Of a stretch of DNA of 29,353 bases, positions 3,150-5,276 are shown piece by piece (within the stretch, counting starts at the first letter, position 1; each line of letters begins with the position of its first letter). The DNA lies in the NCBI GenBank assembly GCA_900548405.1, contig UNSJ01000024.1, positions 1 through 29,353 on the forward strand, written 5' to 3'. This DNA is from Candidatus Gastranaerophilales bacterium. Its GTDB lineage: Bacteria > Cyanobacteriota > Vampirovibrionia > Gastranaerophilales > Gastranaerophilaceae. The notes beneath the pieces were generated by a model. That model was given only the letters and a program-made list of their open reading frames with translations. It had not been told where the DNA came from and searched no databases. A program made the translations under genes and the position numbers.

Positions 3150-4133
3150 TTATTTCTTTTCAAATATCATTACGTATTCGTGTTTAAAGATAAAAAATCC
3201 GCCTGCAAGAGCTCTATAACGCCATAAATTAGCGGTTTTACCCTTAGCACGTTCGTTTCCCTGAATATCTTTTACAATAATACCTTTCAGCTTAAATCCC
3301 AAGCTCATCATTCTTGCCATACACTCAAATCCGAGCGGCTGAACTTCTGAATTTTTGTAGCTGTCACCGATAATCAATGCTGCAAAACGTCCTTTTTCAA
3401 GCATATCATAACCGTTTTTTGCAACTTTCGCAAACAAATCGTAAAATTCTTCTGTTGTATCGCAGTTTGATAAATCTTCTTTTTTATCCGAAAACTTGAT
3501 AATATCATCGTAAGGCGGGTGAAGAATTAAGAACTGGGCTTTTTCTTCACGCATAATATCAAGACTTGCCTGAATTTTTTCTTTAGCTATTTCTGATGCA
3601 GAATCCGCACAGATTACTCTGACGTCAGTTACAAGCTGTTTTGGAGTAAACTTTTCGGAAACGCTTTCTGCAAGTTCATCTTTAAGTTCAACACCAATGC
3701 AGCGTCTGCCCATATTTACAGCTTCAATCCCTGAAGTTCCGGAACCGAAAAACAGGTCAAGCACAATATCATTTTTCTTGGTAAATCTTTCATAAAGCTG
3801 TTGAGCGATTTGAGGAATATAGTTTCCGTGATATTCATTGGAGTGTCCGCCGTCTTTCAATCGTGTCGGGAATTCCCACAATGTATCTGTTTTTACGTGC
3901 TCATAAGCCTTCCAGTTGTTTAAATCAATGTCACTGTATCTGGTAGTTTTGACAGGTTTTACAACTTGCAAATCCGCTGTCTTGGATTTGCTCCACGCTC
4001 CCCGAGTTTCGCCTTTGGAGCTTTGCTCCAGCAGGCTCAATCTGTTCGCTATCCGGACTTGCGCTGCTTCGTCCGTCCGCAAATCCGCCTGTTTAGATGG
4101 TTTTATTTTTGTATTTGTTCTCGCTCTTACCAA
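3150..4133 (-). CDS. site-specific DNA methyltransferase (N4-cytosine/N6-adenine type) with an inserted N-terminal segment
   Basis: This 327-residue protein carries the amino-methyltransferase core. A motif X-like stretch HGNYIPQIAQQL (102-113) precedes motif I, the SAM-binding DLFFGSGTSG (126-135). Then comes GVELKDE, and motif IV appears as HPPYDDIIKF (205-214). Histidine replaces the usual Asp/Asn/Ser of the catalytic (D/N/S)PP(Y/W), a variant I recall in some orphan enzymes. The start is TTG at 4133 with GGGAG eight bases upstream. Residues 16-52 are encoded by a GC-rich 111-bp insertion listed separately; the conserved part begins near SDIDLNNWK (67). No restriction endonuclease is adjacent, so it may be an orphan regulatory methyltransferase or modify in trans. 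Target sequence and base are unknown. Confidence 0.85.
   Translation of the reverse strand: MVRARTNTKIKPSKQADLRTDEAAQVRIANRLSLLEQSSKGETRGAWSKSKTADLQVVKPVKTTRYSDIDLNNWKAYEHVKTDTLWEFPTRLKDGGHSNEYHGNYIPQIAQQLYERFTKKNDIVLDLFFGSGTSGIEAVNMGRRCIGVELKDELAESVSEKFTPKQLVTDVRVICADSASEIAKEKIQASLDIMREEKAQFLILHPPYDDIIKFSDKKEDLSNCDTTEEFYDLFAKVAKNGYDMLEKGRFAALIIGDSYKNSEVQPLGFECMARMMSLGFKLKGIIVKDIQGNERAKGKTANLWRYRALAGGFFIFKHEYVMIFEKK
3968..4088 (-). repeat. 111-bp GC-rich palindromic element inserted in frame in a coding region (RPE-like)
   Basis: Ten-base direct repeats GCAAATCCGC at 3968-3977 and 4079-4088 bracket a segment of exactly 111 bases (37 codons). An inverted copy GGATTTGC at 3984-3991 pairs with GCAAATCC at 3968-3975 or 4079-4086. 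Inside is a tight hairpin TGGAGC-TTT-GCTCCA (4016-4030). By hand count, 64 of the 111 bases from 3978 to 4088 are G or C, far above the surrounding DNA. The insertion keeps the methyltransferase frame open and adds residues 16-52 (ADLRTDEAAQVRIANRLSLL and on). This matches the behaviour of Rickettsia palindromic elements: small, structured, GC-distinct and in frame. No second copy was seen in this window, so its dispersed nature is inferred. Confidence 0.65.
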
Positions 4134-4161
4134 GTCTTTTTCTCCCTATAAATAAATTCTC

Positions 4162-4189
4162 TTTATAGCATCTTATAGAAATGTTTCAG
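4162..4189 (-). promoter_or_regulatory. extended -10 promoter for the methyltransferase gene
   Basis: On the minus strand, TGC-TATAAA (4170-4162) forms an extended -10 with a CTGAAA -35 (4189-4184) 16 bases upstream. A start near 4155 leaves about 20 bases of leader that contain the GGGAG ribosome site. Confidence 0.5.
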
Positions 4190-4253
4190 ATTTGTAATCA
4201 AACATTTAGATGAATTTGTGTTTGTTGTAGATTGAAAAATAGATGGAGGTATG

Positions 4254-5276
4254 ATGTTCGAGGGAGCATTTACACTAAGTAATTTTTATATGATTGCAGG
4301 ATTTTTACTTTCAATGTATGCCTGCGTTTCAAACGATATTATTCAAACTCTGGGTACATTTTTAAGTGCAAATAAAAAAACACCGTTTTATTATTTGTGG
4401 GCTTTTTCGGTAATCGTTCTTGTTATAACAATTGTTACAGGATGGATTGTTAATAACGGAGATATGTCCTTCGGTCTATTGACCAGAATTCCTGTAACAG
4501 AACATTATACATTTCTTTACCTGCTTCCTCCAATTATACTTATACTTTTAACAAGATGGGGAATTCCTGTTGCAACAACATTTTTGGTGCTAAGTGTTTT
4601 TTCTGTCAGCGATACATCCGTAATTTGGATGATGCTTACTAAATCTGTACTCGGTTATGTTATTGCATTTGTTGCCGCAATAATTATCTATAACATCATC
4701 GGACGACCTCTGGAGAGATATTTTTATTACACCCAAAAACGTTCCGGAGATACTAAAATTTCAAAATGGTGGATGGTTGCCAAATGGTGCTCTACTGCAT
4801 TCATCTGGTCCCAATGGCTTGTACAGGATTCTGCAAAGCTGTTTGTATATTTACCAAGAAAGGCATCTGTCACAGAATTATTATTTGTACTTTTAAGCTT
4901 CACTGTTTTCTTGGGAATTTTAACTTACAAACGCGGAGGAGATATTCAAAAAATTGTCAAGATGAAAACTAATGTTCAAGATCCCCGCTCCGCAACTATT
5001 ATTGATATAATTTATGCATTCTTGCTTTTATATTTTATAAATTTAAACAATGTGCCGATGTCAACAACCTGGGTTTTCATAGGTTTGCTTGCCGGACGTG
5101 AAATTGCGCTATATCAAAGATTGCGTTTTGAATCTCCTAAAAAAATGTATAAACATATTATAAAAGACTTATACAAAGTAACTTTAGGTTTAATAGTTTC
5201 GGTTGTAGTAGTAGTTTTACTTACACAATTTGATTATGTTAAACACTTCTTCTTCTCTCATTTTATAGGAGGCTGA
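4254..5276 (+). CDS. divergent PiT-like (phosphate permease superfamily) membrane protein
   Basis: This is a 340-residue polytopic membrane protein with roughly eight to ten hydrophobic segments. Two short motifs resemble the repeated signature of inorganic phosphate transporters of the PiT/PHO4 group: near the N-terminus ACVSNDIIQTLGTF (compare GANDxxNxxGT), and in the second half NNVPMSTTWVFIGLLAGREI around P268 (compare PVSTTHxxxGxxxG). This supports a PiT-like inverted-repeat fold, but the sequence is divergent and the substrate may differ. The start was set at the second ATG (4254), because GGAGG at 4245-4249 is only one base from the first ATG at 4251. It is cotranscribed with mutL, whose ATG lies one base past this stop. 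Confidence 0.6.
   Translation: MFEGAFTLSNFYMIAGFLLSMYACVSNDIIQTLGTFLSANKKTPFYYLWAFSVIVLVITIVTGWIVNNGDMSFGLLTRIPVTEHYTFLYLLPPIILILLTRWGIPVATTFLVLSVFSVSDTSVIWMMLTKSVLGYVIAFVAAIIIYNIIGRPLERYFYYTQKRSGDTKISKWWMVAKWCSTAFIWSQWLVQDSAKLFVYLPRKASVTELLFVLLSFTVFLGILTYKRGGDIQKIVKMKTNVQDPRSATIIDIIYAFLLLYFINLNNVPMSTTWVFIGLLAGREIALYQRLRFESPKKMYKHIIKDLYKVTLGLIVSVVVVVLLTQFDYVKHFFFSHFIGG

Follow-up and report, generated by a model that had tools for sequence, protein, structure and literature searches.

A palindromic DNA element of approximately 111 bp is dispersed through the genomes of one bacterial family of the Gastranaerophilales; its fold is kept by compensatory changes, filled sites correspond to empty ones plus the element (in one pair a single junction base has also changed), and in some genes the reading frame stays open through it. 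The element is probably mobile, structured and non-autonomous, with precise insertion that leaves no target-site duplication; it would move as a folded strand or a circle, be tolerated at certain genic sites, and have filled the same site of a methyltransferase gene independently in three species. The copy used here as reference lies in the window, which is the whole 29,353-nucleotide stretch of DNA that was analyzed.

Within the window, the element is carried by a DNA methyltransferase gene (PF01555; 3150..4133, minus strand) that encodes 327 aa and begins with a TTG codon, with GGGAG located upstream at 4142-4146; the start occupies a matching place in many orthologues. A 341-residue ORF (4251-5276) separates this gene from mutL in the window, while mutL lies directly next to it in L002 and L003. 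A preliminary description had pointed to 10-bp direct repeats around 111 bp, an inverted copy of the repeat, an internal hairpin, a GC share of 64/111, and an open frame, and each of these features was recovered. The repeat GCAAATCCGC occurs at 3968-3977 and 4079-4088, 111 bp apart from start to start; an 8-bp inverted copy, GGATTTGC, is located at 3984-3991; the GC share is indeed 64/111, as compared to 34% for the window overall; and in the minus-strand ORF 15 residues precede the unit and 274 follow it. The spacing of the repeat-bracketed unit was thus right, and its limits were refined: the element proper is at 3978..4088 (minus strand, 111 bp, codons 16-52 of the ORF), as indicated by the dispersed family, alignment A1 and comparison with empty sites, and 3968..3977 (minus strand) is host sequence. 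The latter is a copy of GCGGATTTGC, forming Ala-Asp-Leu codons, that matches the element end and serves as target; in empty orthologues it reads GCNGATTTGC or a near variant.

In minus-strand order the element reads GCGGATTTGC...CAAATCCAAGACA. Its 5' end, GCGGATTTGC at 4079..4088 (minus strand), is both one strand of the terminal stem and the second member of the direct repeat, and the other strand of the stem (GCAAATCC, 3984..3991, minus strand) is identified by the inverted repeat and by covarying helix 1. The internal apical hairpin, GGAGC/GCTCC at 4017..4029 (minus strand), corresponds to covarying helix 5 of the element family. Among 58 aligned copies, the 5' end is GCGGATTTGC in 43, GCGAATTTGC in eight, and a different sequence in seven. 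Target-site duplication was rejected as the origin of the 10-bp repeats because other copies retain this end, generally without a second repeat; on comparison of these sequences, the repeats are the element end plus matching host sequence, with no duplication made by insertion.

The 58 copies just mentioned were aligned for fold analysis out of 87 picked as diverse from a set of 161; the 29 unaligned copies are mostly of 114-122 bp (four are of 105-108 bp), so that a longer subfamily is barely represented in the fold test. RNAalifold identified 29 pairs, 19 of which are changed on both sides. Cells paired in the consensus structure amount to 96.7%, versus 84.3% in shuffled alignments, and double-change cells to 241 versus 64, values that were reached in 0 of 500 shuffles in either case; since one alignment served both to derive the consensus structure and to score it, the comparison is somewhat favorable to that structure. 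Slid helix partners were paired in 10-46% of cells, and helix 1, which joins the terminal inverted repeats GGATTTGC/GCAAATCC, in 98.7%. Compensatory changes keep a family fold that consists of a terminal stem around a short hairpin and a long arm. The RNA fold predicted for the minus strand at 3978-4088 has an energy of -38.2 kcal/mol (z -2.30; 5 of 200 shuffles fold as well) and is partly unlike the family fold; two pairs of the long helix, in the long arm, read A-G in this copy.

When the window element was used as query together with its short flanks (E 0.001), 237 of the 383 family genomes sampled gave matches. In the genus, between one and twenty matches were obtained in each of 28 genomes out of 33, and three copy-rich genomes display at least 32, at least 43 and at least 36 matches (40 of 61-67 candidates having been scored in each), such that copy number reaches dozens per genome in some family members; these counts come from sampled genomes related to that of the window. 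In a sample of the phylum, 95 of 292 genomes match, and all 95 are genomes of the family sample; in the samples searched, the element was seen only in this one bacterial family. The matches collected numbered 239, of which 173 were full; 161 flank-distinct full copies of 103-124 bp were retained, a non-random sample since it was drawn from the genus, the three copy-rich genomes and the best family matches. The proposal that this lineage carries its own coding-compatible palindromic element is supported by these many copies besides that of the window, by in-frame copies in the methyltransferase and in pilin-like leaders, and by the existence of orthologues that lack the segment. Phage and plasmid collections gave no element match at E 1e-5, and one 24-mer had no exact match in viral contigs; a phage or plasmid carrier was rejected on this basis. 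An exact 20-mer match in a Rhodobacter genome (L001) was taken as chance.

Comparison of methyltransferase orthologues reveals the empty state of the site. The gene was detected in 369 of the 383 family genomes. Among the best 120 of 5216 homologous proteins, most are 285-300 residues long, with ...KPSKKADLQVVKPVKTT... or a variant of it at the insertion point; since orthologues without the element read ...KPSKKADLQVVKP..., the window gene has 37 additional codons after residue 15. Thirty orthologous loci were fetched as DNA, of which 27 are empty (the site reads GCNGATTTGCAG or a close variant of it), two are filled (G001 and G002), and one (L080) was unreadable by motif. Among the matches listed, G001 and G002 alone align from residue 3 of the methyltransferase; rows beginning further in were inspected for the 30 fetched loci. 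Each of these two genomes has one element copy, at the methyltransferase site in both, with a single element end in each. Since 27 of 30 orthologous loci lack the segment, it is not common to all orthologues. As for a single copy of the 10-bp repeat in empty orthologues, the exact host GCGGATTTGC is present in 3/3 filled genes and in 3/27 empty ones (L068, L072, L091). From these alignments, the element GCGGATTTGC...CAAATCCAAGACA is inserted before the host GCGGATTTGC in the window gene. A further orthologue, P0018, has an additional segment of a different kind, approximately 26-30 residues long, at about this N-terminal position.

The majority of element copies are located outside genes. ORFs with at least 12 codons before the copy and at least 50 after it span 44 copies: three are methyltransferases, 24 include a pilin motif (147-499 codons after the element), and 17 are others (50-91 codons after); the latter, with no more than 91 codons following the element, seem to be chance frames. 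Consequently, 27 of the 161 copies are in frame with more than 100 codons following, three in methyltransferases and 24 in pilin-like leaders upstream of the N-methylation motif. In the genus alone, ORFs span 13 of 76 copies (15 codons before, 30 after), and three of the 13 are methyltransferases. Identification of the pilins is based on an FTLAE-type motif together with Pfam N_methyl matches in 8/10 and 9/10 scanned ORFs; in the second scan two of the nine were just below the curated cut-off, and one copy was scanned twice.

Element and motif lie within 900 bp of each other in 40 pairs; the frame of the motif is open in 25 of these, as compared to 4/80 for the other two frames. Broken down by distance, the frame is open in 16/16 pairs within 150 bp, 25/29 within 450 bp and 0/11 beyond, so that 11 of the 15 closed pairs lie beyond 450 bp. 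Seven genomes contributed the 25 open copies (ten belong to G016), and with many of these copies being paralogous they do not represent independent events. Twelve of the 25 have no ATG, GTG or TTG codon between element and motif, and some or all of the element must thus be contained in the motif-bearing protein; four of these 12 (L039, L038, L044, L217, the last three with identical element copies) have no start codon inside the element either, and it would be read whole. It thus seems, from the frames, that the element is translated as part of pilin leader segments, and the motif indicates that this leader is presumably removed by prepilin peptidase. Public protein sets contain six matches to element-bearing pilin-like proteins, three of them probably from the G016 genome.

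Two sets of pilin-like paralogues allow filled and empty sites to be compared directly. In G107, L229 (filled) and L230 (empty) have common flanks and an in-frame difference of 120 bp, and no sequence is duplicated. The G016 set consists of L039, which carries the element, and the paralogues L180 and L048, which lack it; here one base at the junction has changed. The number of open codons before the motif has a median of 140.5 with the element (22 ORFs) versus 44 without it (62 ORFs), with overlapping ranges, and element-free leaders can equal filled ones in length (farthest start up to 183 codons). Pilin-like leaders display other irregularities, such as partial duplicates of the FTLAE motif in L036, L183, L184 and L185, and G runs in L030 and L247 that could switch frame. 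In addition, a second dispersed palindrome (GATCCTGAAAC...AGTTCAGGATGAC, read ILK.VQDD) is found in the leaders of L039, L180, L048 and other G016 loci, and is interrupted in its loop by the element in G016 leaders.

The insert of the methyltransferase had been described as adding residues 16-52 outside the catalytic core. It is in frame, and it lies upstream of the DNA methylase domain match, whose best stretch covers residues 75-157 and is thus C-terminal to the insert; as for the added residues, we infer from the gene sequences that they are translated. A structure model has a mean pLDDT of 55, with nearly all of residues 1-71 below 50, which says just that the inserted segment lacks a confident fold, and no protein sharing the inserted peptide was found at E 0.01 (24 candidates). 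The element could instead be an untranslated leader, with translation beginning at the TTG at 3969-3971, just past it; this is the start annotated in the database entries P0001 (labelled Candidatus Melainabacteria bacterium 35_41, and 99% identical over 83% of the methyltransferase protein) and P0002. We regard this as unlikely, given that the upstream TTG and GGGAG are retained in 3/3 filled species, that the N-terminal peptide NTKLKPSKK (or a near version) is common to filled and empty orthologues, that the frame is open through the element in 3/3 filled methyltransferases, and that the four pilin cases mentioned above have no start codon inside or after it. Removal of the element from the transcript in the manner of an intron, leaving it absent from the protein, would fit the conserved branched fold and the precise empty sites; this is nevertheless highly improbable, since the genes keep the frame open through the element, which removal would not demand, and since an Rfam scan of 3700-4400 gave a single match, below threshold and outside the element, and thus no family at or above threshold. 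Translation of the insert is the reading retained here.

The three filled methyltransferase genes (those of the window, G001 and G002) are occupied at the same base. Over the element region they are identical at 119-120 of 121 positions (98-99%), while the gene body is 84-87% identical; third codon positions differ at 0-1 sites in the 37 codons of the element versus 83-103 of 262 in the gene. A coding constraint is not supported as the cause of this near-identity, the two substitutions among the three species being one silent and one not. The three hosts do not form a clade: the methyltransferase tree (30 rows) requires three changes, with one change in 0% of 200 bootstrap trees and an AU p of 0.0242 for a filled clade, and the mutL tree (31 rows) also requires three, with an AU p of 0.0012. 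When well-supported branches alone are considered, one change is forced in the former and three in the latter; the filled group is defined by the trait and not by the trees, which differ in detail, and mutL is near the methyltransferase, so that the two loci are not independent. Near-identical elements within diverged genes of hosts that are not a clade indicate that the same base was hit by separate insertions, and each of the three species probably acquired its copy on its own. This would be the simplest reading of the sequences.

Its main rival is a single ancestral insertion, kept nearly unchanged by selection on RNA or DNA structure and precisely lost in many lineages by way of the 10-bp repeats. 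Such repeats do allow precise deletion, the count of changes is blind to gain versus loss, and copies at the same tRNA gene can outmatch their flanks (L126/L102, 96.4% versus 85.7%). Many losses would, however, be required with hosts that are non-clade in either tree, the 0-1 third-position differences are far under the level of the gene, and copies at other shared sites diverge freely, as in L191/L143, where the element is 82.9% identical and the flanks 73.7 and 88.6%; over 146 pairs, many being paralogous, the identity of the element can be either higher or lower than that of the flanks. These observations leave the ancestral scenario unlikely. Less likely still is a spread of the element among the three species by homologous recombination of longer DNA, rather than by an insertion of its own. 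It would account for near-identity in distant hosts, but in the flanks (45 nt preceding the element and 39 nt following it; eight best rows each) filled species are no closer mutually than to empty ones, and any tract must therefore stop close to the element. Independent insertion is thus preferred over both.

A different context is provided by tRNA genes. An intact tRNA gene is located at most 400 bp upstream, in the minus orientation of the element and on the same strand, in 35 of the 161 copies, while the mirror test on the opposite strand found one in 0/161. In many tRNA-side copies, a second tRNA 3' end follows directly after the element, with the break falling within the T-loop (TTCG^AGTC), an arrangement suggesting site-specific recombination. 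GTTCA or GTTCG, with or without another A, forms the 5' flank of 45/161 copies. Duplicates of tRNA 3' ends that are broken in the T-loop by the element are seen at L020, L032, L126, L136, L151, L191 and other loci. Tandem units occur at some tRNA-side loci, and the array of L136 includes a different structured element. This second type, also present at L151 and L118 in an equivalent tRNA-side position, ends in CAAGACA like the main element and has a different interior (GAGCTGAGG...).

The element may move as a folded single strand or circle through the action of a recombinase, with a host GCGGATTTGC identical to its own end as the insertion point in the methyltransferase. Genic copies would persist only where the added peptide does little harm, as in pilin-like leaders and the N-terminal tail of the methyltransferase. 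The sole mobilizer sought, the Y1 transposase (PF01797), is found in 6/33 genomes of the genus, with no match in 27/33, and in 0/5 of the most copy-rich ones (G273, G333, G290, G241, G267), and is not supported in this role. A more far-reaching scheme, which we put forward tentatively and hold to be somewhat less probable than its negation, is that a lineage-specific, tRNA-associated, branched nucleic-acid element travels from one species to another in the form of a circle or a folded single strand and picks sites that match its own end or that lie in hairpin loops or T-loops; it would have found two sheltered coding niches, namely cleaved pilin-like leaders and one methyltransferase base entered three times.

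Protein-coding palindromes are best known in Rickettsia and Wolbachia, with scattered in-frame cases of other small bacterial repeats, according to two reports (PMC2229807, PMC10969869). Rickettsia palindromic elements (RPEs), also present in Wolbachia, are described as dispersed palindromes of approximately 100-150 bp, located in frame in conserved protein genes and also in RNA genes, and the descriptions take up orthologues whose inserts share a locus, as well as potential hotspots of insertion (PMC2229807, PMC10969869, PMC3767692). The Gastranaerophilales element is likewise a dispersed palindromic repeat in this size range (161 copies of 103-124 bp), inserted in frame in genes whose relatives lack it (methyltransferase orthologues and two sets of pilin-like paralogues), the likeness being one of behavior and description. 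It departs from RPEs as described in its fold of terminal stem, short hairpin and long arm, in the concentration of in-frame copies in pilin-like leaders, in tRNA-side copies on one strand, and in near-identical copies at one base in non-clade hosts. A literature search, mostly without subscription papers, returned no title reporting the Gastranaerophilales element.

Bacterial MITEs (RUP, Correia/NEMIS, ERIC, Yersinia YPAL) include several that are fused in frame, one from Yersinia forming part of a predicted signal peptide (PMC2229807). The present element resembles them in being small and non-autonomous with terminal inverted repeats (GGATTTGC/GCAAATCC), and differs in that no target-site duplication exists at the two empty/filled pairs or in the methyltransferase; no parent transposon was found, the Y1 transposase being the only one sought. 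REP elements, which are linked to RAYT (Y1) transposases, are similarly palindromic, dispersed and structured, whereas the present element is of approximately 111 bp and 27/33 genus genomes are without a Y1 transposase match. The REPs themselves measure 20-40 bp (PMC3733652). Both the element and the double-hairpin elements of fungal mitochondria, compared here by description, are small hairpins, and they differ in genome and fold. The latter are found in RNA genes and coding sequence. The element is accordingly filed as a variant of coding palindromes, RPE-like in behavior with MITE-like ends. It places a coding palindrome in a distant lineage, in hundreds of sampled genomes, with adjacent empty and filled sites and a strongly covarying fold; the presumed discarding of the pilin leader offers a possible simple reason for its tolerance by genes, and the apparent triple hit at one base makes target choice directly testable.
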